Part shown: positions 7,212-36,806 of the stretch, one piece after another | How the letters are laid out: each line of letters starts with the position of its first letter | Numbering within the stretch: the first letter of the stretch is position 1 | DNA from: an uncultured Bacteroides sp. | GTDB lineage: Bacteria; Bacteroidota; Bacteroidia; Bacteroidales; Bacteroidaceae | NCBI GenBank assembly: GCA_947074205.1 | Contig: CAMTOQ010000006.1 | Location: 1-64,000 of the forward strand | Direction of reading: 5' to 3' | DNA: 64,000 bases | Notes under the pieces: model-generated | The model's input: only the letters and a program-made list of their open reading frames with translations | Databases searched by the model: none | Told to the model about the DNA's origin: nothing | Translations under genes and position numbers: made by a program

Positions 7212-7667
7212 TCAGTCTATCTCTAGACCTTCTGGTAGGAACATAGATACATCTTTGCCATACGAGAGCAACTCGCGAACGATGGTTGAGCTGACGGCTG
7301 TCAATTCGGGTTCGGTAAACAGCAGGATCGTCTCGATATTGGCTAGTTGACGGTTGATGTCGGCTATAGTCTCTTCGTACTCGAAATCTTTCACGGTACG
7401 TATGCCCCTTACGATGAAGCCTGCTTCGTATTTCAGTGCTAGGTCCACGGTTAAAGTGTCGTAGGCCACCACCTTCACACGAGGTTCGTCTTTGTAGAGG
7501 TTGCTGATCATCTTTACACGTTTATCGCTGGGGAAATAGGTGTGCTTCGTCATATTCACCCCTACACCGATGATAATCTCATCCATGAAGGTGAGTGCAC
7601 GTTTGATTACCGAAAAGTGGCCCACTGTAAAGGGGTCGAATGTTCCGGGAAATATAGCTCGTTTCAT
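7212..7667 (-). CDS. coaD: Phosphopantetheine adenylyltransferase
   Basis: [18 protein letters not shown] and [13 protein letters not shown]. Confidence 0.95.
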
Positions 7668-7773
7668 CTTTCTTTTTCAAATTAAGACGTGCAAAGAGAG
7701 CACGTGTTAGTAGTTAAAAAAATAAGTCCACGCTTTGTTCGTGAACCTATTCTATTTTTAGCATATCATAAGT

Positions 7774-9648
7774 TTAAGCTAAATCTTCCTCAACGACAAG
7801 GTTGTCAATGATAAACGTTTGACGCTCCATTGTGTTCTTACCCATATAGAAGGCTAGCAGCTCTTTTACTAAGTCGGTTTTGCGCAGAGATACCTGCTCT
7901 AGGCGGATATCCTTGCCGATGAAGTGTTTAAACTCGTCGGGCGAAATCTCACCAAGACCTTTAAATCGAGTGATCTCCGGGTTGGGGCTTAGCTCGTTGA
8001 TGGCATTAAGACGCTCTTCTTCGCTGTAGCAATACATTGTCTTCTTCTTGTTGCGCACGCGGAATAGTGGTGTTTGCAAGATATAGACATGTCCCTTTTT
8101 GATTAGATCGGGGAAGAATTGCAAGAAGAACGTGATTAACAGCAAGCGTATATGCATACCGTCCACATCGGCATCGGTAGCCACAATCACCTTGTTGTAG
8201 CGCAAACCTTCGATGCCATCCTCAATGTTGAGAGCAGCTTGCAGGAGGTTAAACTCTTCGTTTTCGTAGACTACCTTCTTGGTGAGACCATACGAGTTGA
8301 GTGGCTTACCACGCAAACTAAATACGGCTTGAGTAGTTACATCGCGGCTTTTGGTGATAGATCCACTAGCCGAGTCACCCTCGGTGATAAAGATGCACGA
8401 TTCCGATTCGAGCCCTTTGCCTTTAGGGTCATTGAGATGTAGGCGGCAATCGCGTAGTTTACGATTGTGCAGGTTGGCCTTCTTGGCACGTTCGCGTGCT
8501 AGTTTGGTGACACCTGCTATGGCTTTGCGCTCTTTCTCAGACTCTTGAATCTTCTGCAACATCACCTCGGCCACATCGGCGTGGCGGTGAAGATAGTTGT
8601 CTACCTCGGTCTTCACAAAGTCGCCCACAAACTTGTTTACCGTTACGCCGCCGGGCGACATATTGGTAGAACCAAGTTTAATCTTTGTTTGACTCTCGAA
8701 CAGAGGCTCCTCTACGTTTACAGCAATGGCAGCCACCAATCCGTTTCGGATATCGGCATAGTCCATGTTTTTGTTGTAGAAGTCCTTGATGGTGCGCGCA
8801 ATGTGCTCCTTAAAGGCACTTTGGTGAGTACCTCCTTGTATGGTGTGTTGACCGTTGACAAACGAGTAGTACTCTTCGCCATACTGGCCGGTATGTGTAA
8901 ATGCAATCTCTATATCTTCCCCCTTCAAGTGAATGATAGGGTAGAGGGCAGCCGCTGTCATGTTGTCGTTCAAGAGGTCTTCTAGACCATTGCGCGAGAT
9001 GATGCGTTGTCCATTGTAGATGATAGCCAGTCCCGTGTTGAGGTAGGTATAGTTGCGCAGCATCGTTTCGATGAACTCACCGCGGAAGCTATAGCCGATA
9101 AATAGCGAACTATCGGGCTCAAAAAAGATGTAAGTACCATTTTCTTCATGGGTAGGCTTTATCTCGTCGCTTTGTAGCTCTCCTTTAGAGAAGATAGCGG
9201 TACGAACGGTTCCATCGCGGTAGCTTCGTACCTCGAAGCGAGTACTTAGGGCATTCACCGCCTTGATACCTACACCATTCAGTCCGACACTCTTTTTAAA
9301 AGCCTTGCTGTCATACTTACCACCGGTGTTGAGAACGCTAACCGCTTCGACCAACTTACCTTGTGGGATGCCTCGACCAAAGTCGCGCACCGATACACGT
9401 AGATTCTCTTCCACGTTGATCTCAATCTTTTTGCCGGCATGCATTTTGAACTCGTCGATACTATTGTCTAATACCTCCTTTAGCAAAACATAGATCCCGT
9501 CTTCGGGATGTGCTCCATCGCCCAGCTTACCGATATACATACCAGGGCGAGTGCGCACATGCTCCATGTCGCTCAGCGTTCTGATATTGTCGTCGGTATA
9601 GGCTACTGGCGCAAATTCATCTATTGGTAACAGTTCGTTCTTATCCAT
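7774..9648 (-). CDS. parE: DNA topoisomerase IV subunit B (type IIA topoisomerase ATPase subunit)
   Basis: [55 protein letters not shown]. Confidence 0.92.
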
Positions 9649-9652
9649 AGTG

Positions 9653-10786
9653 TTATACTATCTTTTTAGCAAATGCACGACGACGTTTATGTTGCACAGG
9701 GTCAAAGAAAGACCATTGTGCCTGTACTTTTCCATTCTCTTCTAGTTCGGGATTACTCTCTGCATCTTTGAAGCCCATCTTTTGATATACTTCTATTAAG
9801 TCGTAGAATAATAGCGAGTTAACCCCTTTGCTTTGGTACTCAGGCTTCACGGCAACGAGTAGCAAGTCCAATGTCTTAGGACGTTTCAAGAAAAGTGATT
9901 TAGCCAGATGGTACCAGCCAAAAGGAAGAAGTCTACCTTTGGCCTTCTGAAGTGCCACTGAAAGTGATGGCATTGATAGCCCAACAGCAATAAGCTGATC
10001 GTTTTCGTCTACCACCATAGAGATCATTCGGAGATCTACGATAGGTAGATACATCTTGATATATTGCTTAATCTGTCTTTGTGTTAAGGGAGAATAGCCA
10101 TATAGAGGGCTATAAGCTTCGTTCATCAGCTCGAATATTTGCTGGCCATAATCGGCTGCTAGCTTCTTGCTCGAAGTATATTTTTTGATGCGCAAGTTGA
10201 ATTTTTTCATAATCATCAACGCTATACGCTCATATCTCTCGGGCATCTTTTCAGGGATCTTAATCTTAAACTCTACCCAGTCTGCTTCCTTCTCGTATCC
10301 TAGCTTCTCCATGTGCTCAGGGTAGTAAGGGTAGTTGTAGGTAGTGGCCATGGTGCTAAGTTGGTCGTAGCCTTCGATCAACATGCCTTCGGCATCGAAG
10401 TCGGTGAATCCTAATGGACCTACGACATCTGTCATGCCGCGTTCTTTACCCCAATCTTCCACCGCTTTTAGCAGAGCTGTAGATACTTCCGGCTCATCAA
10501 TAAAGTCGATCCAACCAAAACGTACATCTTTCTTTTCCCACTTTTCGTTAGCGCGAGTGTTGATAATGGCGGCAACGCGTCCCACAATCTTATCGTCTTT
10601 ATAGGCTAAGAAATAATCGGCTTCGCAAAACTCAAAAGCAGCGTTCTTCTTTTTGTTGAACGTGTTGAGCATATCGTCGAAAAGGTCGGGTACAGAGTAG
10701 GCATTACCTTTGTACATTTGGTAGTTGAAACGTATGAATTTTTTTAATTCGCTCTTTGTTGATACTTTCTTTATCGTGATTGCCAT
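9653..10786 (-). CDS. GNAT-like N-acetyltransferase family protein (about 377 aa)
   Basis: [51 protein letters not shown] resembles a GNAT acetyl-CoA binding region. Confidence 0.7.
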
Positions 10787-10993
10787 ATTGTAGTAAAGTT
10801 TTGAGCTACAAATATAACGGTTAATTTTGTAACAGCCACGAGCTTAGCGGATAAAAAAAGTCTCCAAATAGTGTCTGCTAGCTGCTTTTAAATGTTTGAT
10901 AGCGATCAAAATAGTAGCTCTATCTTCAAACTTATTATCTTCAATTTATGTTTTTATATTGTGTAGATTCAATTCATCTTTTAACGATATATT

Positions 10994-11878
10994 ATGCTAG
11001 TAGTAGGAATGGGTGAGGCATTATGGGACATGTTGCCTCAAGGAAAACAGATTGGTGGTGCACCAGCCAACTTCGCTTATCACGTATCTCAGTATGGCAT
11101 AGATAGTTGCGCTATCAGTGCTATAGGCAGTGATGAGTTGGGCGATGAAATAATTAAAGTGTTCGACGAGAAAAAGCTGTGCTACTCTTTGCCTCGTGTA
11201 GATTACCCCACTGGCACTGTGCAGGTGACGCTTGACGAAGAAGGTGTGCCTTGCTATGATATAAAAGAAGATGTGGCGTGGGATAATATCCCGTTTACAG
11301 ACGAGCTGCGGAAGATGGCATTTAGAACACGCGCTGTGTGTTTCGGCACTTTGGCCCAGCGAAGTCCCATTAGCCGGGAAACGATACTGAAGTTTGTCGA
11401 TACAGTGCCCGATGCCGAAGGTCAGCTAAAGTTATTCGACATCAATCTACGTCAGAACTTTTATAATAAAGAGATTATAGAGCATTCGCTGAAACGCTGC
11501 AATGTGCTTAAAATCAATGATGAAGAGCTGATTGTTTTAGGTCGATTGTTTGCCTATTCGGCCATCGATTTGCAAGAGAAGTGTAGCGCTATACTGAATG
11601 ACTATAAGCTAAAGATGGTGATTCTGACTTGCGGCACCAATGGTAGTTATGTGTTTACCAAAGAGGCAACCTCGTTTTTCCCTACCCCAAAGGTTAAGAT
11701 AGCCGACACGGTGGGAGCCGGCGATTCGTTTACAGCCACCTTCTGTTCTGCTATTCTGAAAGGTCATCCTATACCCGTAGCACATAAATTGGCAGTCGAT
11801 GTATCGGCCTATGTCTGTACACAGTATGGTGCAATGCCGCAGCTTCCCGAAGCGTTTGTGAAGCGTATGGAGATGTAG
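10994..11878 (+). CDS. PfkB-family carbohydrate kinase (fructokinase-like)
   Basis: GMGEALWDMLPQGKQIGGAPANFAYH and DTVGAGDSFTATF. Confidence 0.92.
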   Translation: MLVVGMGEALWDMLPQGKQIGGAPANFAYHVSQYGIDSCAISAIGSDELGDEIIKVFDEKKLCYSLPRVDYPTGTVQVTLDEEGVPCYDIKEDVAWDNIPFTDELRKMAFRTRAVCFGTLAQRSPISRETILKFVDTVPDAEGQLKLFDINLRQNFYNKEIIEHSLKRCNVLKINDEELIVLGRLFAYSAIDLQEKCSAILNDYKLKMVILTCGTNGSYVFTKEATSFFPTPKVKIADTVGAGDSFTATFCSAILKGHPIPVAHKLAVDVSAYVCTQYGAMPQLPEAFVKRMEM

Positions 11879-12066
11879 ATTGTTTGCCTCAAATTGGAAC
11901 AAATAAATAGATGCAGACTGTAAAAGTCTGTGTTAATCATTGCTTTTGTTAAAACAATATGTTATAATTGTGGTTAAAATTATGTAAGTCGTTTTTCGTG
12001 TGTATGAGGAACGAGTGCTTGATTTATAGATTTCGATGAGCAATCGATAACAAAAGTATGTGATAT

Positions 12067-14160
12067 ATGAACAACTTTGGTACTACTAAAAACTGCAGTT
12101 ATAGAGTGAAGTTCTCGCTGATTTTACTCTTTCTTTTTACTACAATTACTGCTTCTGCGCAGTTGCTTCAAGATATAGGTAAAGTTTTTACGGGTGATAC
12201 TATTGGCTCTGACTCTGTGATCCAGAAGGTAAACACAGATTCAATTGCAATTGCCAACCTTAACCGTATGCTAGATAGTGTGCGGCTTAGCGAAGCCAAC
12301 CTCCGTATGGAATTCGAGCAGCTGGAGTTGCAGCACTATAAAGGCGATTCCTTAAAGATTATTCAGCGCAAACATCGCATTGACTCGCTGCGTGCCTATA
12401 CTAAAGGTGTACCGGTAGTTGTTGAGGGCGATACGCTCTACAGTATATTTGGTCAGGAGAGTGGGATTAGTCCTATTCAAAGAGCAGATATGGAGTCGGT
12501 TAGCATTGATAAGCTGGGCAGACAGATGCGTTTCAATGCCGATTCGTTGAAGATTCACGATGTGGACAATGTGGTGAGCCTGTCTTATGGTAAGGATGTG
12601 GTGGCTACCATCACCGAGCAAGATGCCATGTGGGAGGGTGTTTCGCGTAAGGAGTTGGCCGAGAAATACCGAAAAGCCATTGTGACCAAGGTGGAGCAGA
12701 TGCGACGTGAGCATAGTTTATGGAAACTGGCTAGACGCATTCTTTTCTTTATATTGGTTATTGTGGGGCAGTTGTTCTTGTTCCGATTAGTCAACTGGGG
12801 ATTCCGCAAATCTAAAGGAAGCATTGAGGCATTTGCGGGGAGGAAGTTAAAGTCGTTTTCTGTGCAAAACTTCGAGATGCTTAATGTGGCGCAACAAACC
12901 AAAGTGCTACTCTTTGTTGCCAGTATGTTGCGCTATGGGATCATGGCAATCATGTTGCTGTTTACTGTTCCACTACTCTTCTCTATCTTCCCACAAACAA
13001 AAGATTTAGCCAATAAGATTCTATCGTATATATGGAACCCTGTAAAGAGCATCTTTACATCGGTGGTAGACTATATTCCTAATCTCTTTACTATCATTAT
13101 TATATGTATAGCGATGCGCTATCTTGTACGGATGGTGCGCTATCTGGCCACAGAGATGCAAGCAGGACGATTGAAGATTAATGGTTTCTATCCCGATTGG
13201 GCCATACCATCGTTTCACATTGTTCGCTTTATGCTCTATGCGTTTATGGTGGCCATGATCTACCCCTATCTACCCGGTTCTAAGTCGGGTGTATTTCAAG
13301 GTATTTCGGTATTTGTCGGTTTGATATTCTCATTGGGTTCTAGTACGGTGATTGGTAATATTATTGCCGGTCTTGTTATCACCTATATGCGTTCGTTTAA
13401 GATTGGCGACCGTATCAAGCTGAACGACACGATGGGGAATGTAATAGAGAAGACGCCTTTGGTGATTCGTATACGTACCCCTAAGAATGAGGTGGTGACA
13501 CTGCCCAACTCGTTTATGATGTCTACACAGACGGTTAACTATACCCGTTCGGCCCGTGAGTTTGGACTGATTATTCACTCCGAGGTGACTATTGGTTACG
13601 ATGCACCATGGCGACAAGTGCACGATTTGCTAATCAACGCAGCCCTCAATACACCTGGGGTTCAAGAAGATCCACGTCCCTTTGTGCTAGAAACTTCGCT
13701 CAGCGACTTCTATCCTGTCTATCAGGTTAATGCCTATATAAAAGATGCCGACCGCATGGCTCAGATTTACTCCGATCTTCACCAAAATATTCAAGATAGG
13801 TTTAATGAAGCCGGAGTTGAGATTCTATCGCCACACTATGAGGCAAAACGAGATGGAGAGTCTAGTACAGTTGTTAAAGACGACCTGGCTAAAAAGTTCC
13901 CACAATATGATGTAGCGATGAAAGCGCGTCGTGCCGAGGAGAAGGAAAGAGATGCGCAGATTGATGCCGAAGAGAAGGAGGCGGAACTGCATCCGGAACA
14001 GTTCTTCGGAAGTATTATGGGGGATGAAGATGCAGATAAACCTATATCTACAACGGCTACTGATCAGCCGGCAGCACAGCCCGCCGAACAACCGGCAACT
14101 CCATCGCCTGCCGAGGCGCCAACAACACCGCCAACTGACGCACCACAGCCTAAAGCATAG
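12067..14160 (+). CDS. MscS-family mechanosensitive ion channel
   Basis: GSSTVIGNIIAGLVITYMRSFKIGDRIKLNDTMGNVIEKTPLVIRIRTPKNEVVTLPNSFMMS; Pro/Ala-rich C-terminal tail. Confidence 0.92.
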   Translation: MNNFGTTKNCSYRVKFSLILLFLFTTITASAQLLQDIGKVFTGDTIGSDSVIQKVNTDSIAIANLNRMLDSVRLSEANLRMEFEQLELQHYKGDSLKIIQRKHRIDSLRAYTKGVPVVVEGDTLYSIFGQESGISPIQRADMESVSIDKLGRQMRFNADSLKIHDVDNVVSLSYGKDVVATITEQDAMWEGVSRKELAEKYRKAIVTKVEQMRREHSLWKLARRILFFILVIVGQLFLFRLVNWGFRKSKGSIEAFAGRKLKSFSVQNFEMLNVAQQTKVLLFVASMLRYGIMAIMLLFTVPLLFSIFPQTKDLANKILSYIWNPVKSIFTSVVDYIPNLFTIIIICIAMRYLVRMVRYLATEMQAGRLKINGFYPDWAIPSFHIVRFMLYAFMVAMIYPYLPGSKSGVFQGISVFVGLIFSLGSSTVIGNIIAGLVITYMRSFKIGDRIKLNDTMGNVIEKTPLVIRIRTPKNEVVTLPNSFMMSTQTVNYTRSAREFGLIIHSEVTIGYDAPWRQVHDLLINAALNTPGVQEDPRPFVLETSLSDFYPVYQVNAYIKDADRMAQIYSDLHQNIQDRFNEAGVEILSPHYEAKRDGESSTVVKDDLAKKFPQYDVAMKARRAEEKERDAQIDAEEKEAELHPEQFFGSIMGDEDADKPISTTATDQPAAQPAEQPATPSPAEAPTTPPTDAPQPKA

Positions 14161-15340
14161 GCTTGCGGCAGAAGATCAAGGTGCGGCTATCGTCGCTCAA
14201 TGTAGTAGCAAACAGATAGAGCTCTCCCCCTTCGGAGAGCTTTAGTTTTTTGCGCAACTCGGCCACTGTCGATGGAAAATTGCGCACTGCCAAATTGCCT
14301 TTTGATATGCCCTTTAGCTTCTCCTTCAGTTCTTTTTTATTGAAGCCACAGCTATCTGTCACCTCGAATATACGCCCCGGAAAATCGGAGATTAAAGAGT
14401 CTGATGTATAGAGGTGGCTGTTAGGATGAAGTTTCTTCAGCGAAAAGGCTTCGGCTATCCGACGGAAAGCTCCTGCTTTCATCACAGAAGCATTGGGCTC
14501 GTATAGATAGTGTCCCAATTGGTTGGTGTAACTGCAATGTGCCTCTTGCTCCTCTTCGCGGGTAAATACAAACTTTTCGGTGTGCCCGGCTGCAAGGTTA
14601 ATGCAGTGTATATTTATCGGTTCTTTCTCCTCTTGATCTTTGAGAATCAACAGCAGCTCCTTGCATTCGTTTTGGGCCGAAATGATGTGTACCTCCACCA
14701 CATGCTTCATGGTGTTGAGTGCTAATGAGAGGTCTAGCATAGGCGATAACTTAATCATCACCCGGGCAGCTTTCTCGAGAAGTTGAGGCTCGATCGCCGA
14801 AACATCGGGCTCGCAGTCGGCTATCACCACCGTTTTCCCACCTTTACTGTCGCGGCGAGCAGGATCAATGAATAGCCAATCCACACGTGACATGGTAGAT
14901 AGATAGTCTACGCCATCTGCATGATGCACGCTGATATGTTGCTGACCCAATGCGGCAAAGTTATGTGTTGCAATTTCGCAAAGCTCTTCCTGTCGCTCCA
15001 CATAGTCGCCCTTTTTGAAGCTCTCTGCCATGAAGCTGCAATCTACACCAAATCCACCCGTTAGATCGGTGAGGCTATTGCCTTGGGCCAGCTCGGCTTT
15101 GTAGCGTGCCGTGCCTTCGCTGGAACATTGCTCCAACGAAAGATGTCGCGGGTAGCGAATGTCGAGGCAGTTGTACCAAGTGGGCAATTTAATCTTAGCC
15201 ACTTGGCGACCGGCAATCTGCGTGATAGCTACTTTCATATCCACGTCGGGATACTTACCAGCTTGCAGTGCCAAGTTGCGAGGGTCATCAGTGTCGTGCT
15301 GCTCAATGAATTGGAGGGTTGCGGGCGATAGAGCTTCCAT
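14150..15340 (-). CDS. Class I SAM-dependent methyltransferase, THUMP-like
   Basis: LTDLTGGFGVDCSFMAESF, WLFIDPARRDSKGGKTV. Start trimmed to MEALSP; the ORF track extends to 15388 and overlaps the upstream gene. Confidence 0.8.
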   Translation of the reverse strand: MEALSPATLQFIEQHDTDDPRNLALQAGKYPDVDMKVAITQIAGRQVAKIKLPTWYNCLDIRYPRHLSLEQCSSEGTARYKAELAQGNSLTDLTGGFGVDCSFMAESFKKGDYVERQEELCEIATHNFAALGQQHISVHHADGVDYLSTMSRVDWLFIDPARRDSKGGKTVVIADCEPDVSAIEPQLLEKAARVMIKLSPMLDLSLALNTMKHVVEVHIISAQNECKELLLILKDQEEKEPINIHCINLAAGHTEKFVFTREEEQEAHCSYTNQLGHYLYEPNASVMKAGAFRRIAEAFSLKKLHPNSHLYTSDSLISDFPGRIFEVTDSCGFNKKELKEKLKGISKGNLAVRNFPSTVAELRKKLKLSEGGELYLFATTLSDDSRTLIFCRKPML

Positions 15341-32229: not shown

Positions 32230-32237
32230 TATATTTG
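32230..32237 (+). promoter_or_regulatory. Bacteroides-type -7 box of the pqqD-like gene
   Basis: TATATTTG matches TAnnTTTG, with a TTG about 20 bp upstream and an ATG at 32271. Confidence 0.5.
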
Positions 32238-32270: not shown

Positions 32271-32543
32271 ATGAAAACAAAACAAGACTTTGAGCTACGT
32301 ACAGTAGCCGGTGAAAATATCTTGGTAGCAACAGGAAAGATGTCGACCAACTTCTCTAAGCTGATCTCTCTAAACGACTCTGCCGCCTATCTTTGGAAAG
32401 AAGTATCGGCTATGCCATCGTTTGATGTGAATACTATAGCAGATTTATTGATAGATCGCTACGATGTAGATCCTGCCATGGTGCTAGTAGATGCACGTGC
32501 CATTGTAGAAGACTGGGCAGAAGCCGGTATTATAGATTTATAG
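32271..32543 (+). CDS. PqqD-family protein (RRE-like, 90 aa)
   Basis: LNDSAAYLWKEVSAMPSFDVNTIADLLIDRYDVDPAMVLVDARAIVEDWAEAGII matches PqqD/RRE pattern. Confidence 0.8.
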   Translation: MKTKQDFELRTVAGENILVATGKMSTNFSKLISLNDSAAYLWKEVSAMPSFDVNTIADLLIDRYDVDPAMVLVDARAIVEDWAEAGIIDL

Positions 32544-34268
32544 ACTCGCCCCCTTCAACTCCTCGATAGTTACTACTTCTTGGCAGGCTGCCAAAGCTTC
32601 TGCACGATGAGATATTACCACGATAGTTAGCGAAGGGCACTGCACCTTTAGGTGTTTCAGTGTCTCGTTGATGGCTTGTTGTGTCTCTTCATCCAAAGAA
32701 GAAGTTGCCTCGTCTAGTAGCAGTAACTCCACGTTGCGGTACAGCGCGCGAGCTATACCTATACGTTGGCGCTGACCTCCCGAAAGCTTGGAACCGCCTT
32801 CACCAATCTGCGTCTGCACCCCATCGGGCAGGGAAGCCACGAAGTCGCTCAGCGATGCTTGCTGCAACACCATTTGTATACGCTTATCATCTACCTTGTT
32901 TCCCATCACTATATTATCCAGCAACGAGCCGTTTAGCATAAAAAGCTGTTGCGACACATAGCCTATCTGGCTTCGCCAATTCTCTTTAAACTGTTCGCTG
33001 AGTTGCTGCCCATCTATCTCTATGCCTCCTTTTTGTGGTGATATAAAACCCAGCAGCAGATAGAATAAGGTGCTTTTCCCGGAACCCGATTCGCCCTTTA
33101 TGCCGATGAAATCCCCTTTCTCAATTGTCAACGAGAGCTTTTGAATCACATCTTTACCATCCTCATAGCAGAAGTCAACCTCCTTAAATGAAATACTCTT
33201 GTCGAAGGTTATAGATTGGCTTTCTCCTTTAGTTTTCTCGCGTTCATCATCTTCTTTTATCTCATCAAGTAGCTTCAGGGCAAACGAGTTGCTGCGCATC
33301 GTAAATATGGCATTGGTGGTTTTAACCACTCCCGGCATCACTCTATAGATGGCGATTGCAAATAGCCCCACCACGATGCTGAGCGATGATAGCGATAGAA
33401 ACTGTGCTGCACCTACCAGCACCACAACGGCACATACCACAGTGAACTCCAATACGCGTTGTAAAGAGGCTTGCAACATACCTCTGCGCGAGGCCAAAAG
33501 TCCTTGACGTTGAAGCAACGATTCGTACTGTTTCGCACTCTCGTCAAACATTCCGCTTAGCGCCATGTCGCCAAATCCCACAAAGGTTTGTTGCAGCAAT
33601 TGCGCTTTGCGTGGATAGAGCTCGTAAAGCTGTTCGCCATAGCGGCGGATGCGTTTCTGGGTGAGGTAGTAGTAAAGTATGGATATAGGGGCAAAGGTCA
33701 GTACCACAAGGCCAAACACCTTGATGTTGTATACCATTAAAGCGATTAGAACGATGACAGTAACCGTTAGCTCGCTTATTAATCCTACAAATGGGATGAA
33801 ATAACCCTGAATCAGATACGCCGCTACCCCCTCCACTTTATTGATGAGTCGATGGCTACTATTTTGCTTGATGAAAAGAAAACCATTATTGTAATAAAGA
33901 CGATAGAGTCGAAGCGAAAGATACTGGGAAATGTCAAACAACATCCTGCTTTGACGGTAGCCTAGGTACGAGGTGAGCAGAAACCGTATAAAAGCAATTG
34001 CAACCACAGCTATCAATACGGAATAGATAAAAGAAGCGGTGCTTTCGAATCCGCTGTGTTCGTATATAGCGCTGAGGTAGGGATTTTCGGTGATATTATT
34101 CTCCCCCAATATCATCACTAATAGTGGCAAGAGTAGCCCTAAGCCCAGTAGGTCTAGCCCAATCATTAAGAAAGAGTTTGCGCCCGTGAATACAACTTTG
34201 CGTCGCAAGGCTTTGGGCAGAATCTTATAGAGTATAGTGAATGCTTTGAATATGTTTTTTGTCGCCAT
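32538..34268 (-). CDS. ABC transporter, fused permease/ATP-binding (exporter type)
   Basis: N-terminal TM domain; Walker A GESGSGKST, signature LSGGQRQRIGIARAL, Walker B LLLLDEATSSLD; no C39 peptidase domain. Confidence 0.9.
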   Translation of the reverse strand: MATKNIFKAFTILYKILPKALRRKVVFTGANSFLMIGLDLLGLGLLLPLLVMILGENNITENPYLSAIYEHSGFESTASFIYSVLIAVVAIAFIRFLLTSYLGYRQSRMLFDISQYLSLRLYRLYYNNGFLFIKQNSSHRLINKVEGVAAYLIQGYFIPFVGLISELTVTVIVLIALMVYNIKVFGLVVLTFAPISILYYYLTQKRIRRYGEQLYELYPRKAQLLQQTFVGFGDMALSGMFDESAKQYESLLQRQGLLASRRGMLQASLQRVLEFTVVCAVVVLVGAAQFLSLSSLSIVVGLFAIAIYRVMPGVVKTTNAIFTMRSNSFALKLLDEIKEDDEREKTKGESQSITFDKSISFKEVDFCYEDGKDVIQKLSLTIEKGDFIGIKGESGSGKSTLFYLLLGFISPQKGGIEIDGQQLSEQFKENWRSQIGYVSQQLFMLNGSLLDNIVMGNKVDDKRIQMVLQQASLSDFVASLPDGVQTQIGEGGSKLSGGQRQRIGIARALYRNVELLLLDEATSSLDEETQQAINETLKHLKVQCPSLTIVVISHRAEALAACQEVVTIEELKGASL

Positions 34269-34290
34269 AGTCTGTTACACTGCAAATTAA

Positions 34291-34308
34291 AAATGTAAAG
34301 TTACATTT
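34291..34308. promoter_or_regulatory. Palindrome in the divergent ABC / HprK-like promoter
   Basis: aaatgtaa-ag-ttacattt perfect inverted repeat; TATTTTTG (-7 box) at 34327-34334. Confidence 0.5.
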
Positions 34309-34356
34309 AATAGTGCCTAATTTAGCTATTTTTGTCTAACTTATCGAGAGGGAAAC

Positions 34357-35229
34357 ATGAAAAACTATAATATAGCGGGATGGACCTGCACAGTAACTGG
34401 AGATATTGAGGTGATAGGCAATAATTATGCCCCCTTTGCTTGTGAAGCTGCACCTAGTGACAACACTCTGCTGTTCAATCTCAATGTGTTGGGCAATGCC
34501 AACCTTGGAGAGATGGAACGCGGCCAACTGTTGGATACCTACCCCGACGAATCGCTTCGTATCGACATGTGTCGTCTTCAAGATAAGTGGCAGATGGTTT
34601 GCTACGAACCTCATGAGTCTACTCCTTTTTCCATGGTAGAGGCTTCGGCCGACTACAGTAAGGTAGTTCTCTACATCTACGATGCTAGACTTGCCGACTT
34701 TGCTTTCAACAATGCTATGATGATCGTTTATGCTTGTGCTTCAGCCCTACGTGGCGACACCTTGTTGTTTCACAGTTCGGTGGTAGTCCATGAAGGTAAA
34801 GCCTACCTCTTTTTGGGTAAAAGTGGTACCGGAAAAAGTACACATACCTCTCTCTGGGTAAAGCATATTCCAGGTAGTAGACTACTTAACGACGATAATC
34901 CTGTGGTGCGTATATTGCCCGATGGCGTTAGCGTGTTTGGCTCCCCTTGGAGCGGAAAGACACCCTGCTACATCAACGAGAGCTATCCTGTGGGGGGCAT
35001 CGTTCGTTTGTGGCAAGCACCTCACAACCAAATTGAACGGTTGCGCCCTGCTGCCTCGTTTGCAGCTATTATGCCTACTGTCAGCACGCTGCCTTGTAGT
35101 GATGGTATCACCCAAGGCGTACGCGTTGCTATTACTAAAGTGGTAGAGCAAGTCCCCATCTATCGCTTAGATTGCCTGCCCGATGAGGCTGCCGCACAGT
35201 TGTCTTTCACTACACTCACCGGCCGATGA
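34357..35229 (+). CDS. HPr kinase/PEPCK-like P-loop protein
   Basis: LFHSSVVVHEGKAYLFLGKSGTGKSTHTSLW, RLLNDDNPVVR, VFGSPWSGK. Confidence 0.8.
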   Translation: MKNYNIAGWTCTVTGDIEVIGNNYAPFACEAAPSDNTLLFNLNVLGNANLGEMERGQLLDTYPDESLRIDMCRLQDKWQMVCYEPHESTPFSMVEASADYSKVVLYIYDARLADFAFNNAMMIVYACASALRGDTLLFHSSVVVHEGKAYLFLGKSGTGKSTHTSLWVKHIPGSRLLNDDNPVVRILPDGVSVFGSPWSGKTPCYINESYPVGGIVRLWQAPHNQIERLRPAASFAAIMPTVSTLPCSDGITQGVRVAITKVVEQVPIYRLDCLPDEAAAQLSFTTLTGR

Positions 35230-35675
35230 AGAAGATTACACTCCCCAACGAGCTAGTTATTGCCGAAGTAAAGAAATTGATCGACGAAGGCAAAGAGGTC
35301 ACGCTGCGTGTCAAGGGCAACAGCATGCTCCCTTTTATTCGTGGTGATAAAGACTTTGTGGTGATGCGCCAAGTAGACGCACCCTTGCGCCGTTGGGACA
35401 TCATCTTGGCTAGAGACACAGAATGCAGGTTGTTGATACATCGCATTGTGGCAATTACGCCCGATCGTGTCATTATGATGGGGGATGGCAATCTGGGCTA
35501 CACCGAGAAGTGTCTTCACAAAGACATCATTGCCCGAGTAGAGCAGATCCGTAAAGGAGATAAGCTTATCAATTGCTATAGCAAGTCCATGCTGGCTAAG
35601 ACCATTTGGTGGCATCGACTACTCCCTATACGTCGCTACTTATTGGCTATTTATCGTTTGACACATAAAAGATAA
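35226..35675 (+). CDS. S24/S26-family signal-peptidase-like protein
   Basis: VTLRVKGNSMLPFIRGDKDFVVM, LLIHRIVAITPDRVIMMGDGNLG. Confidence 0.8.
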   Translation: MKKITLPNELVIAEVKKLIDEGKEVTLRVKGNSMLPFIRGDKDFVVMRQVDAPLRRWDIILARDTECRLLIHRIVAITPDRVIMMGDGNLGYTEKCLHKDIIARVEQIRKGDKLINCYSKSMLAKTIWWHRLLPIRRYLLAIYRLTHKR

Positions 35676-35681
35676 CTACGA

Positions 35682-36806
35682 ATGACAAAATCTCAAGACG
35701 AGAAAGCTTTTTTCTCCTTGCTGCGAGCAGGACTATGGCCTAATCATCAACCCGACGCCGATTTATTCGGCGAGCAAACTGATTGGAATGAAATCTTTAT
35801 TCTCTCCATGCAGCAAACCGTTACAGGTTTGGTGTGGGATGGCATGGCGAAACTCCCCTCAGAGCTTCAGCCGCCAAAGGCCTTCAAACTAAAATGGTAT
35901 AGCTATGTCTTGAAGATAGAGCAGGGCAACGAGCAGATCAATGGCAGTGTGGCCGAGATTATTCCTGCCTATCAGCAGAGTGGCCTACACCCTGTGTTGC
36001 TAAAGGGAGCAGGTTTAGCGGCGCTATATCCCAACCCTCTACACCGTTGTGCGGGCGATATGGATATCTATGTGGGCGAGACCGATTATGATAAGGCCAA
36101 CCGAGTGGCGCAATCCATTGGCTATAAAATGGGGAGCGAAAGCACCTATCACAGTCATCTAGACCGTGGGACTATGGTGGTGGAAAATCACCGTAAGATG
36201 GTGGCTATTTTTTCGAAACCGTTGCAAAAAGAGTTCCTTCGTCAGCTCTCGGCATGGTATCCCAGTGGTGCCGCATCGGTTCAGATAAATGGTGTAGCTA
36301 TTCCCGTTCCGCCAGCTCAGTTCAATGTATTGTTTGTGTTTCTGCACATGTACAAGCACTTCATTCAGATGGGTGTCGGCCTACGCCAGTTGTGCGACTG
36401 GGCCATCTTGCTGAACAGTACTTCAGTATCTAGCCTTGAACTAGGCGGTTGCAAAAAGGGGTGGGAATATCTGGGACTGTTCTTAGTGGAGTATCTGGGT
36501 TTAGATGCCGAAAAGCTACCCTATTACAATCCAGCTATGCGCACTGAAATGGAACTAGCAAAGGAGTTGATATTAAAAGATGGAAACTTTGGGTTCAATG
36601 ACGTAGAGTTTCATACTAAGCGCCCAAAGAGCTATTGGGCAGGAAAACTTTTTTCTATGCGCTATCAGGCCAACCGGTGGTTCAAAGTGCTTCGTATTCA
36701 GCCTTCTCAGGCCATGAGTTTCTTGCTGATCTATCGCATACAACTTTCTATAGAGCAAATCGTTAAAGATCGATTCGGGAAGTCTAAGTCTAGAGTCAGT
36801 ATGTAG
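35682..36806 (+). CDS. Uncharacterised nucleotidyltransferase-family protein
   Basis: HPVLLKGAGLAALYPNPLHRCAGDMDIYV nucleotidyltransferase core; FLHMYKHFIQMGVGLRQLCDWAIL. Confidence 0.8.
   Translation: MTKSQDEKAFFSLLRAGLWPNHQPDADLFGEQTDWNEIFILSMQQTVTGLVWDGMAKLPSELQPPKAFKLKWYSYVLKIEQGNEQINGSVAEIIPAYQQSGLHPVLLKGAGLAALYPNPLHRCAGDMDIYVGETDYDKANRVAQSIGYKMGSESTYHSHLDRGTMVVENHRKMVAIFSKPLQKEFLRQLSAWYPSGAASVQINGVAIPVPPAQFNVLFVFLHMYKHFIQMGVGLRQLCDWAILLNSTSVSSLELGGCKKGWEYLGLFLVEYLGLDAEKLPYYNPAMRTEMELAKELILKDGNFGFNDVEFHTKRPKSYWAGKLFSMRYQANRWFKVLRIQPSQAMSFLLIYRIQLSIEQIVKDRFGKSKSRVSM

Follow-up and report, generated by a model that had tools for sequence, protein, structure and literature searches.

A putative trans-acting module for peptide maturation and export in Bacteroides, related to the linear polyphosphorylated peptide systems

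The question raised by the locus

A 64,000-nucleotide stretch from an uncultured Bacteroides sp. (assembly GCA_947074205.1, contig CAMTOQ010000006.1, positions 1 to 64,000; hereafter, the window) contains five adjacent genes that resemble parts of a peptide-modifying pathway and have no recognizable precursor beside them. An earlier note on this DNA offered two explanations: (i) a peptide maturation and export system with its precursor encoded in trans, and (ii) another use of the same modules, such as modification of a cell-surface substrate. We asked what these genes have in common, on which substrate they may act, and to which known system they are closest.

Layout of the locus

ORF coordinates and family searches located all five reported ORFs at positions 32271-36806 (Table 1). 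Their adjacency stands; however, the earlier account left out that the ABC exporter gene lies on the minus strand. It is convergent with the PqqD-like gene, the stops of the two genes overlapping (32538-32543), and divergent from the kinase gene; thus, the locus comprises three transcription units and not one operon. The ATGA overlap of the kinase and peptidase genes at 35226 and the 6-nt gap between the peptidase and nucleotidyltransferase genes after 35675 are both present in the sequence. The Bacteroides -7 promoter element has the consensus TAnnTTTG, and matches to it precede the PqqD-like and kinase genes. The same strand layout was observed in two loci of relatives, L003 and L056.

Table 1. 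Genes and putative promoter elements of the locus, in window coordinates
Feature	Position	Strand	Evidence or remarks
TATATTTG, match to Bacteroides -7 promoter element	32230..32237	+	About 33 nt 5' of PqqD-like gene; consensus match, putative promoter
PqqD-like RiPP recognition element (RRE, LppB/B1-like), 90 aa	32271..32543	+	PF05402, E 1.8e-13
ABC exporter, TM + ATPase, MsbA-like (LppD-like), 576 aa	32538..34268	-	PF00005, E 2.7e-32
TATTTTTG, match to Bacteroides -7 element	34327..34334	+	About 22 nt 5' of kinase gene; consensus match, putative
HprK/PEPCK-type kinase (LppK-like), 290 aa	34357..35229	+	Predicted fold; P-loop GKSGTGKS, H139, K160, D179-D180
Signal-peptidase-like Ser/His putative leader peptidase (LppS/SipW/Sec11 type), 149 aa	35226..35675	+	S33, H72, D87
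PF14907 nucleotidyltransferase (LppN/PsmN-like), 374 aa	35682..36806	+	PF14907, 1.4e-45; K108-G109, D126xD128

Conservation of the gene group

We surveyed 56 kinase loci in 46 genomes of the genus, the genome of the window being left out. The RRE, peptidase, nucleotidyltransferase, and ABC exporter genes are all found within 6 kb of the kinase gene at 26 of these loci, and at least three of the four at 34; an ABC gene is near the kinase gene at 41 of 56. The gene order is shuffled between loci, and one of them, L005, forms a compact co-directional run HprK-S24-PqqD-NTase-ABC. The neighborhood comparison that the earlier note had proposed thus revealed five families that are co-conserved across relatives in a changing order, and the gene group is a genuine module.

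Proteins encoded by the module

The profile of 35 RRE proteins matches TfuB1 (4e-8), TbiB1 (9e-7), and LppB (9x8z, 7.6e-5), so that the lasso B1 proteins outscore LppB. Residues N35, W42, Y64, and D74 are nearly invariant among the 35 RREs. Three of them, N35, Y64, and D74, are the predicted leader-binding residues and align with N33, Y60, and D70 of LppB, which hold the leader Tyr and Pro (PMC13381572).

The kinase has no Pfam match and a weak NCBIfam match to HprK_rel_A (6.9e-5). Its AlphaFold2 model (pLDDT 88) has PEPCK (6e-8) and HprK (4e-5) as the best Foldseek matches. Across 37 kinase relatives, H139, K160, and D180 are invariant and D179 is nearly so; as modeled, the kinase is a protein with the H-K-D-D residues on a PEPCK/HprK fold. 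HprK-related kinase A systems, for which PqqD-like partners are known (TIGR04352), and SynChlorMet ScmC (TIGR04249) have an HprK-like kinase in common with the window. Both assignments were rejected, as the kinase scores 22 bits against a cut-off of 200 and 18 bits against a cut-off of 125, respectively.

The S24/S26-like protein matches Pfam weakly (1e-3), and the profile of its 37 members matches SEC11C (1.5e-9) and SEC11A (2.6e-9). S33, H72, and G86-D87 are invariant in these members. The catalytic residues of LppS are S29, H68, and D93 (PMC13381572); the S29-H68 spacing of 39 residues equals that of S33-H72, and D87 is the candidate counterpart of D93. In the nucleotidyltransferase, K108, G109, R122, D126, and D128 are invariant among 30 members. 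Its moderate-quality structural model is similar to nucleotidyltransferases of the ANT(2'') type (E about 1e-3), and a PDB profile search returned no useful match. The best NCBIfam match of the ABC exporter is MsbA (250 bits, under the cut-off), and Pfam and NCBIfam searches yielded no C39 peptidase match, in agreement with the earlier description.

Candidate precursor peptides

No precursor had been recognized beside the five genes, and our search of the window likewise gave nothing above background. The search for co-conserved short ORFs suggested at that time did identify a candidate precursor family that tracks the cassette: 80 distinct peptides of 34-100 aa in which a YxxPx[VI]E leader is followed by a variable C-terminus. 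The leader consensus is approximately YxxPxVEV(L/I)EVxVExGFxxS with Ser at Tyr+19, and 79 of the 80 peptides have Ser or Thr at Tyr+18 to +20. We found no description of these short ORFs in the literature searched. Where conserved short ORFs ran antisense to conserved genes, they were dismissed as shadows.

With a search model trained on peptides near cassettes, YxxP peptides were detected in 36 of 47 cassette genomes of the genus versus 1 of 54 genomes without the cassette (p 1.8e-16, Fisher), and in 20 of 29 cassette genomes of the order Bacteroidales versus 2 of 169 others (p 1.6e-18); since genomes of the same genus are related, the Fisher p-values overstate independence. At the threshold used, 11 of the 47 cassette genomes have no YxxP peptide, and the single cassette-free genome of the genus with such peptides carries two. 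The peptides number up to 13 per genome in relatives and are scattered, and 24 of 150 have a cassette kinase gene no more than 10 kb away (1.2 expected). Cassettes from other Bacteroidales families can contain a YxxP peptide gene, placed between those for PqqD and HprK (L046, L047, L049, L051, and L055). The genome of the window has two YxxP peptides, C15 (MKEIKIKSIRLEYVPPKIEVIEIEIEGAILSLSSGKSDGPSGPSMSSKW) and C68, both on other contigs and with modest scores (E 8.9e-5 and 6e-3).

For the majority of YxxP peptides, 55 of 73, a gene for a surface protein with a lipobox lies immediately downstream, compared with 11% in the control, and three peptides share the reading frame of such a protein. 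Neither of the two candidates in the genome of the window precedes a gene for such a protein; C15 is located downstream of a gene of the alpha-amylase family. A literature search for fimbrillin with PqqD found no paper.

Comparison with linear polyphosphorylated peptide systems

The earlier note left the family unnamed; the closest match to the module is the Paenibacillus alginolyticus pathway (LppA-K-B-S-D-N) for linear polyphosphorylated peptides (LPP; Popov et al., Nat Commun 2026; PMC13381572). Its core consists of a PqqD-like RRE, an HprK-like kinase, a SipW/Sec11-type SpI peptidase, an NTP-transferase, and an MsbA-like exporter, and the pathway has neither a lasso cyclase nor a B2 protease (PMC13381572). 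All five window genes match this core, and they occur together in many relatives; cyclase and B2 are likewise missing from the window system, judging by the gene lists of the loci that were read and, for B2, also by profile search. LPP precursors have 35-200 aa, an N-terminal YxxPxV leader, and a variable C-terminus (PMC13381572), a description that the Bacteroides peptides fit. The two systems also share YxxPx[V/I] leaders, a Ser about 18-20 residues past the Tyr, and a frequent capsule context.

Several features set the systems apart. The full Bacillota leader is YxxPxVLxHQxIxFETxxS, and the phosphorylated S3 corresponds to Tyr+18 (PMC13381572), whereas the Bacteroides leader, YxxPxVEV(I/L)EVExE, lacks the LxHQ and FET segments and has its consensus Ser at Tyr+19. 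LPP were stated to be restricted to Bacillota, and the string "Bacteroid-" is absent from the main text of that study (PMC13381572), whereas the window system belongs to Bacteroidota and its candidate precursors are encoded in trans. In Bacteroides relatives, the scattered precursors are mostly beside surface-lipoprotein genes. Our literature search for PqqD, HprK, and nucleotidyltransferase in "Bacteroid-" found no paper.

Alternative explanations

The cassette could instead modify or export a surface glycan or a lipid-linked intermediate. In that case, a carrier protein or a sugar would be the substrate of the RRE, kinase, and nucleotidyltransferase, and the YxxP peptides would be unrelated or would serve as regulatory leader peptides of fimbrillin-like genes. 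The capsule-export genes Wza and Wzc were each found at 17 loci, with UpxY-like and glycosyltransferase genes nearby; since many cassettes are thus located in capsule loci, a glycan-linked role is possible. A PF14907 protein and an ABC exporter alone specify no peptide substrate, and the position of most YxxP peptides next to surface-protein genes suits the second explanation of the earlier note. However, PqqD-like RREs bind peptides and the predicted leader-binding residues are kept, the YxxP peptides track the cassette in both samples and lie inside it in several families, and the characterized Bacillota LPP clusters are also found in capsule loci, yet act on peptides (PMC13381572). We consider this explanation unlikely.

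Clusters for phosphorylated lasso peptides of the paeninodin and pseudomycoidin type share with the window system a discrete RRE, an H-K-D-D HprK-like kinase, a PF14907 nucleotidyltransferase, an ABC exporter, and [Y/W]xxP leaders; they contain a B2 protease and a cyclase, whereas the window system has a Ser/His signal-peptidase-like enzyme and no cyclase at the loci read. A profile search for B2 (PF13471) found none in the genome of the window, and no cyclase is encoded among the ORFs around the locus; the absence of both from the locus had already been noted, and a lasso cluster of this type was rejected on these grounds. A degenerate or split lasso pathway, with cyclase and B2 lost or used from elsewhere, would account for the paeninodin-type tailoring genes and for the best RRE profile scores being those against lasso B1 proteins. 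We nevertheless hold it to be very improbable: PF13471 exceeds its curated cut-off in 1 of 101 genus genomes, which is cassette-free, and in no cassette-bearing genome of the genus; the Ser/His peptidase stands in for B2; and the full set, lacking lasso enzymes, is found at many loci and is thus not a local remnant. Chance adjacency or general co-transcription of five unrelated genes, to which the use of both strands, the three transcription units, and the flanking housekeeping genes in the window genome might point, is ruled out for practical purposes by the clustering of the same families, reordered, in dozens of species.

Proposed pathway

The first explanation of the earlier note, maturation and export of a precursor encoded in trans, is supported by the co-conserved genes, the absence of B2, the co-occurrence with YxxP peptides, and the two peptides encoded elsewhere in the same genome. 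We therefore interpret the locus, with a probability of about 0.8, as an LPP-type module in Bacteroides that matures and exports RiPPs in trans; in the best reading, it serves several peptides that are paired with surface proteins.

For the homologous Paenibacillus core, both phosphorylation and cleavage of the precursor have been demonstrated; in LPP systems, the kinase adds at least one phosphate to the core Ser, and the SpI peptidase depends on the RRE for leader removal (PMC13381572). By analogy with such homologues, the pathway may proceed as follows: (i) the PqqD-like RRE would bind the YxxPx[VI] leader of short precursors encoded elsewhere in the genome, (ii) the HprK-like kinase would phosphorylate, possibly repeatedly, Ser/Thr 18-20 residues past the leader Tyr, (iii) the signal-peptidase-like Ser/His enzyme, supplied with substrate by the RRE, would take off the leader, (iv) the nucleotidyltransferase would extend the phosphate with an additional nucleotidyl or sugar moiety, and (v) the ABC transporter would export the linear phosphopeptide. 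The final role of the product is probably at the cell surface. More speculatively, one cassette might mature a genome-wide set of peptides in which every peptide has its own genetic partner, a large surface lipoprotein to which it is in some cases fused, and the exported phospho- or glycopeptides might act on or with those proteins; this would be a surface-display or peptide-tagging system of Bacteroidota and not a secreted antibiotic.

If the LPP-type reading holds, such systems occur commonly in Bacteroides and sporadically across the order; they have a new leader subtype, and a single cassette serves many precursors. The short YxxP ORFs would then be assigned a likely role, and the pairing of precursors with surface lipoproteins provides a concrete lead to function.

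Identities of the five genes

The five ORFs that the earlier note had placed at 32271-36806 were all found there. Its family assignments were borne out by strong single-sequence domain matches for the PqqD-like protein, the ABC exporter, and the nucleotidyltransferase (NTase), whereas those of the kinase and the peptidase had weak domain evidence from single sequences and were settled by family-level tests. Given that the profile of the S24/S26-like peptidases (37 members) matches human Sec11 at 1.5e-9 and that Ser33, His72, and Gly86-Asp87 are invariant in this family, the window protein is a Ser/His (ER/SipW-type) signal-peptidase-like enzyme. The predicted model of the kinase (pLDDT 88) matched the PEPCK and HPr kinase folds. 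Its conserved His139, Lys160, and Asp180, together with the nearly invariant Asp179, make up the H-K-D-D set reported essential in lasso-tailoring kinases.

The ABC gene is on the minus strand, a detail absent from the earlier note; with this orientation, the locus comprises three transcription units. TAnnTTTG, the Bacteroides -7 element consensus, occurs 73 times in window positions 1-64000 versus 51 expected, including copies upstream of PqqD and the kinase. The window genome encodes a second PqqD-domain protein (~115 aa) that adjoins a transporter-like gene and is apparently unrelated to the cassette.

Features of the cassette, candidate precursors, and related loci
Feature	Location	Strand	Sequence or match
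PqqD-like protein	window		PF05402, 1.8e-13
ABC exporter	window	minus	PF00005, 2.7e-32
Nucleotidyltransferase	window		PF14907, 1.4e-45
C15 peptide	window genome		MKEIKIKSIRLEYVPPKIEVIEIEIEGAILSLSSGKSDGPSGPSMSSKW, E 8.9e-5
C68 peptide	window genome		MYPNMKPKEKYQRPTIEVIHIELEAPVLSGSDIKKGSGWG, E 6e-3
C15 peptide and flanking genes	G000 C15 ~7450-14500; L114:4947-12027
Second PqqD-domain protein	G000:C59:17708-17869 (L002)
Variant operon	L083:6799-10609
In-frame YxxP-lipoprotein, 580-625 aa, internal hydrophobic signal region	L147:2522-4276
Same	L148:2550-4292
Same	L149:643-2517	minus

Conservation of the cassette

A search with the kinase found relatives in 47/101 genus genomes and in 29/198 genomes of the order. 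Among 56 fetched genus loci, some on contigs ending short of the full neighbourhood, the ABC gene (41), the peptidase (40), the RRE (39), and the NTase (36) lie within 6 kb of the kinase; all four are present at 26 loci and at least three at 34, which supports the co-conservation that the earlier note had proposed to check. Gene order varies between loci: L005 has HprK-S24-PqqD-NTase-ABC in a single direction with overlapping or abutting genes, and the window's layout is common only to its close relatives L003 and L056. L003, from a Bacteroides sp., is the nearest relative with a name, and the genus assignment of the window is based on it. A Wza-like gene is present at 17 loci and a Wzc-like gene also at 17; thus, many cassette copies lie within capsule or exopolysaccharide loci.

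Candidate precursor peptides

Between PqqD and HprK, other Bacteroidales families carry an ORF of 42-62 aa that contains a YxxP motif (L046, L047, L049, L051, and L055), and comparable ORFs are found close to the cassette at further loci. A profile built from 24 cassette-proximal peptides was searched against 19,065 short ORFs. The search for co-conserved leader-bearing ORFs, suggested previously, yielded a peptide family with matches of up to 63 bits (training peptides among them) versus 9 bits for the best residue-shuffled ORF; relatives outside the training set scored 41 bits (L089) and 32 bits (L110). In line with the earlier note, this profile found no precursor among the short ORFs of the 64-kb window. 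The window genome contains two YxxP peptides in all; its assembly, a draft of 89% completeness, may lack further precursors.

In 80 distinct peptides, all of which have the leader Tyr and Pro by construction, positions +5, +7, +8, +10, and +12 from the Tyr are mostly hydrophobic, and Glu predominates at +6, +9, and +13. Ser or Thr occurs at +18 to +20 in 79/80 peptides, whereas core composition alone predicts about 46%. Longer peptides in several larger-genome species (L059, L060, L075, L139, L150-L153, and L161) share an SDLEDxINDILTxE-like C-terminal motif, perhaps a second recognition element. Two variant operons of one genome, G203 (L083 and L110), combine a YxxP peptide and PqqD with HprK-like kinase(s) and an S24-like peptidase; the L083 operon has a gene for a radical SAM protein ahead of the peptide and two kinase genes after it, which suggests an extra modification.

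YxxP peptides were found in 36/47 kinase-bearing genomes of the genus versus 1/54 others (p 1.8e-16), and in 20/29 versus 2/169 across the order (198 genomes, 150 genera; p 1.6e-18). These p-values ignore relatedness among genomes, and the training set of the profile consisted of cassette-proximal peptides; the informative part is that cassette-free genomes have almost no such peptides. The sole exception in the genus, G230, has two peptides on one 15-kb contig (C46, L154); its cassette may be absent through a draft assembly gap. Up to 13 peptides occur in one genome, and 24 of 150 genus peptides have a cassette kinase no more than 10 kb away (1.2 expected).

Partner surface-protein genes

A same-strand ORF that encodes 120 aa or more and has a lipobox-like N-terminus follows 55/73 YxxP peptides versus 70/632 control genes (p 2e-31); the median gap to all 67 downstream ORFs is 39 nt. 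Most of ten partner proteins scanned lack a Pfam match; the matches include Mfa_like_1 (fimbrillin-like) in one protein and BspA-type leucine-rich repeats in another. Three loci of two genomes have the YxxP segment and the lipoprotein in a single reading frame. No separate ATG, GTG, or TTG start for a full signal peptide precedes the hydrophobic region at the L147 and L148 junctions, and these loci could be true fusions; alternatively, a separate start would use an unusual codon.

The C15 peptide, the best YxxP match of the window genome, lies ~20 nt after the gene of a 1491-aa secreted alpha-amylase/CBM48 protein and is followed by a gene of 770 aa, presumably PorZ-like in appearance. At L046, L047, L049, and L055, a gene of a very large secreted-looking protein (763-2607 aa) stands immediately before the cassette and its in-operon peptide.

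Comparison with LPP and lasso systems

Clusters for linear polyphosphorylated peptides (LPP) with exactly the same gene set occur in capsule loci of Bacilli (PMC13381572). There, YxxP leaders are recognised and bound by the RRE, and the HprK-like kinase adds up to four phosphates to the precursor at core Ser3. SpI-like LppS, helped by the RRE, cleaves off the leader; no effect was detected when LppN was deleted (PMC13381572). PsmN, a related protein, adds hexoses to the phosphoserine of a lasso peptide. N35, Y64, and D74 of the window RRE, nearly invariant in 35 homologues, align with LppB N33, Y60, and D70, which hold the leader Pro and Tyr (PMC13381572). From the LPP biochemistry, this alignment, and the PsmN activity, an order of events for the Bacteroides cassette reactions may be proposed by analogy.

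The lasso leader protease B2 was not found in the window genome, and no lasso cyclase was seen in the gene lists of the loci read, an absence also argued from the missing B2. The window system agrees with the LPP definition in gene content, B2 absence, precursor form, and catalytic and binding residues, whereas the Bacteroides peptides do not match the extended Bacillota leader consensus. LPP are stated to be restricted to Bacillota, and the main text of that paper has no mention of "Bacteroid-" (PMC13381572). For these reasons, sequence comparison leads us to call the cassette a putative LPP-like system, whose RRE could belong to either the LPP or the lasso B1 clade. Compared with LPP, the phylum and the leader subtype of the Bacteroides system would be new, as would its precursors, which are encoded in trans, several per genome, and paired with surface-protein genes, although parts of this may already be described in other papers.
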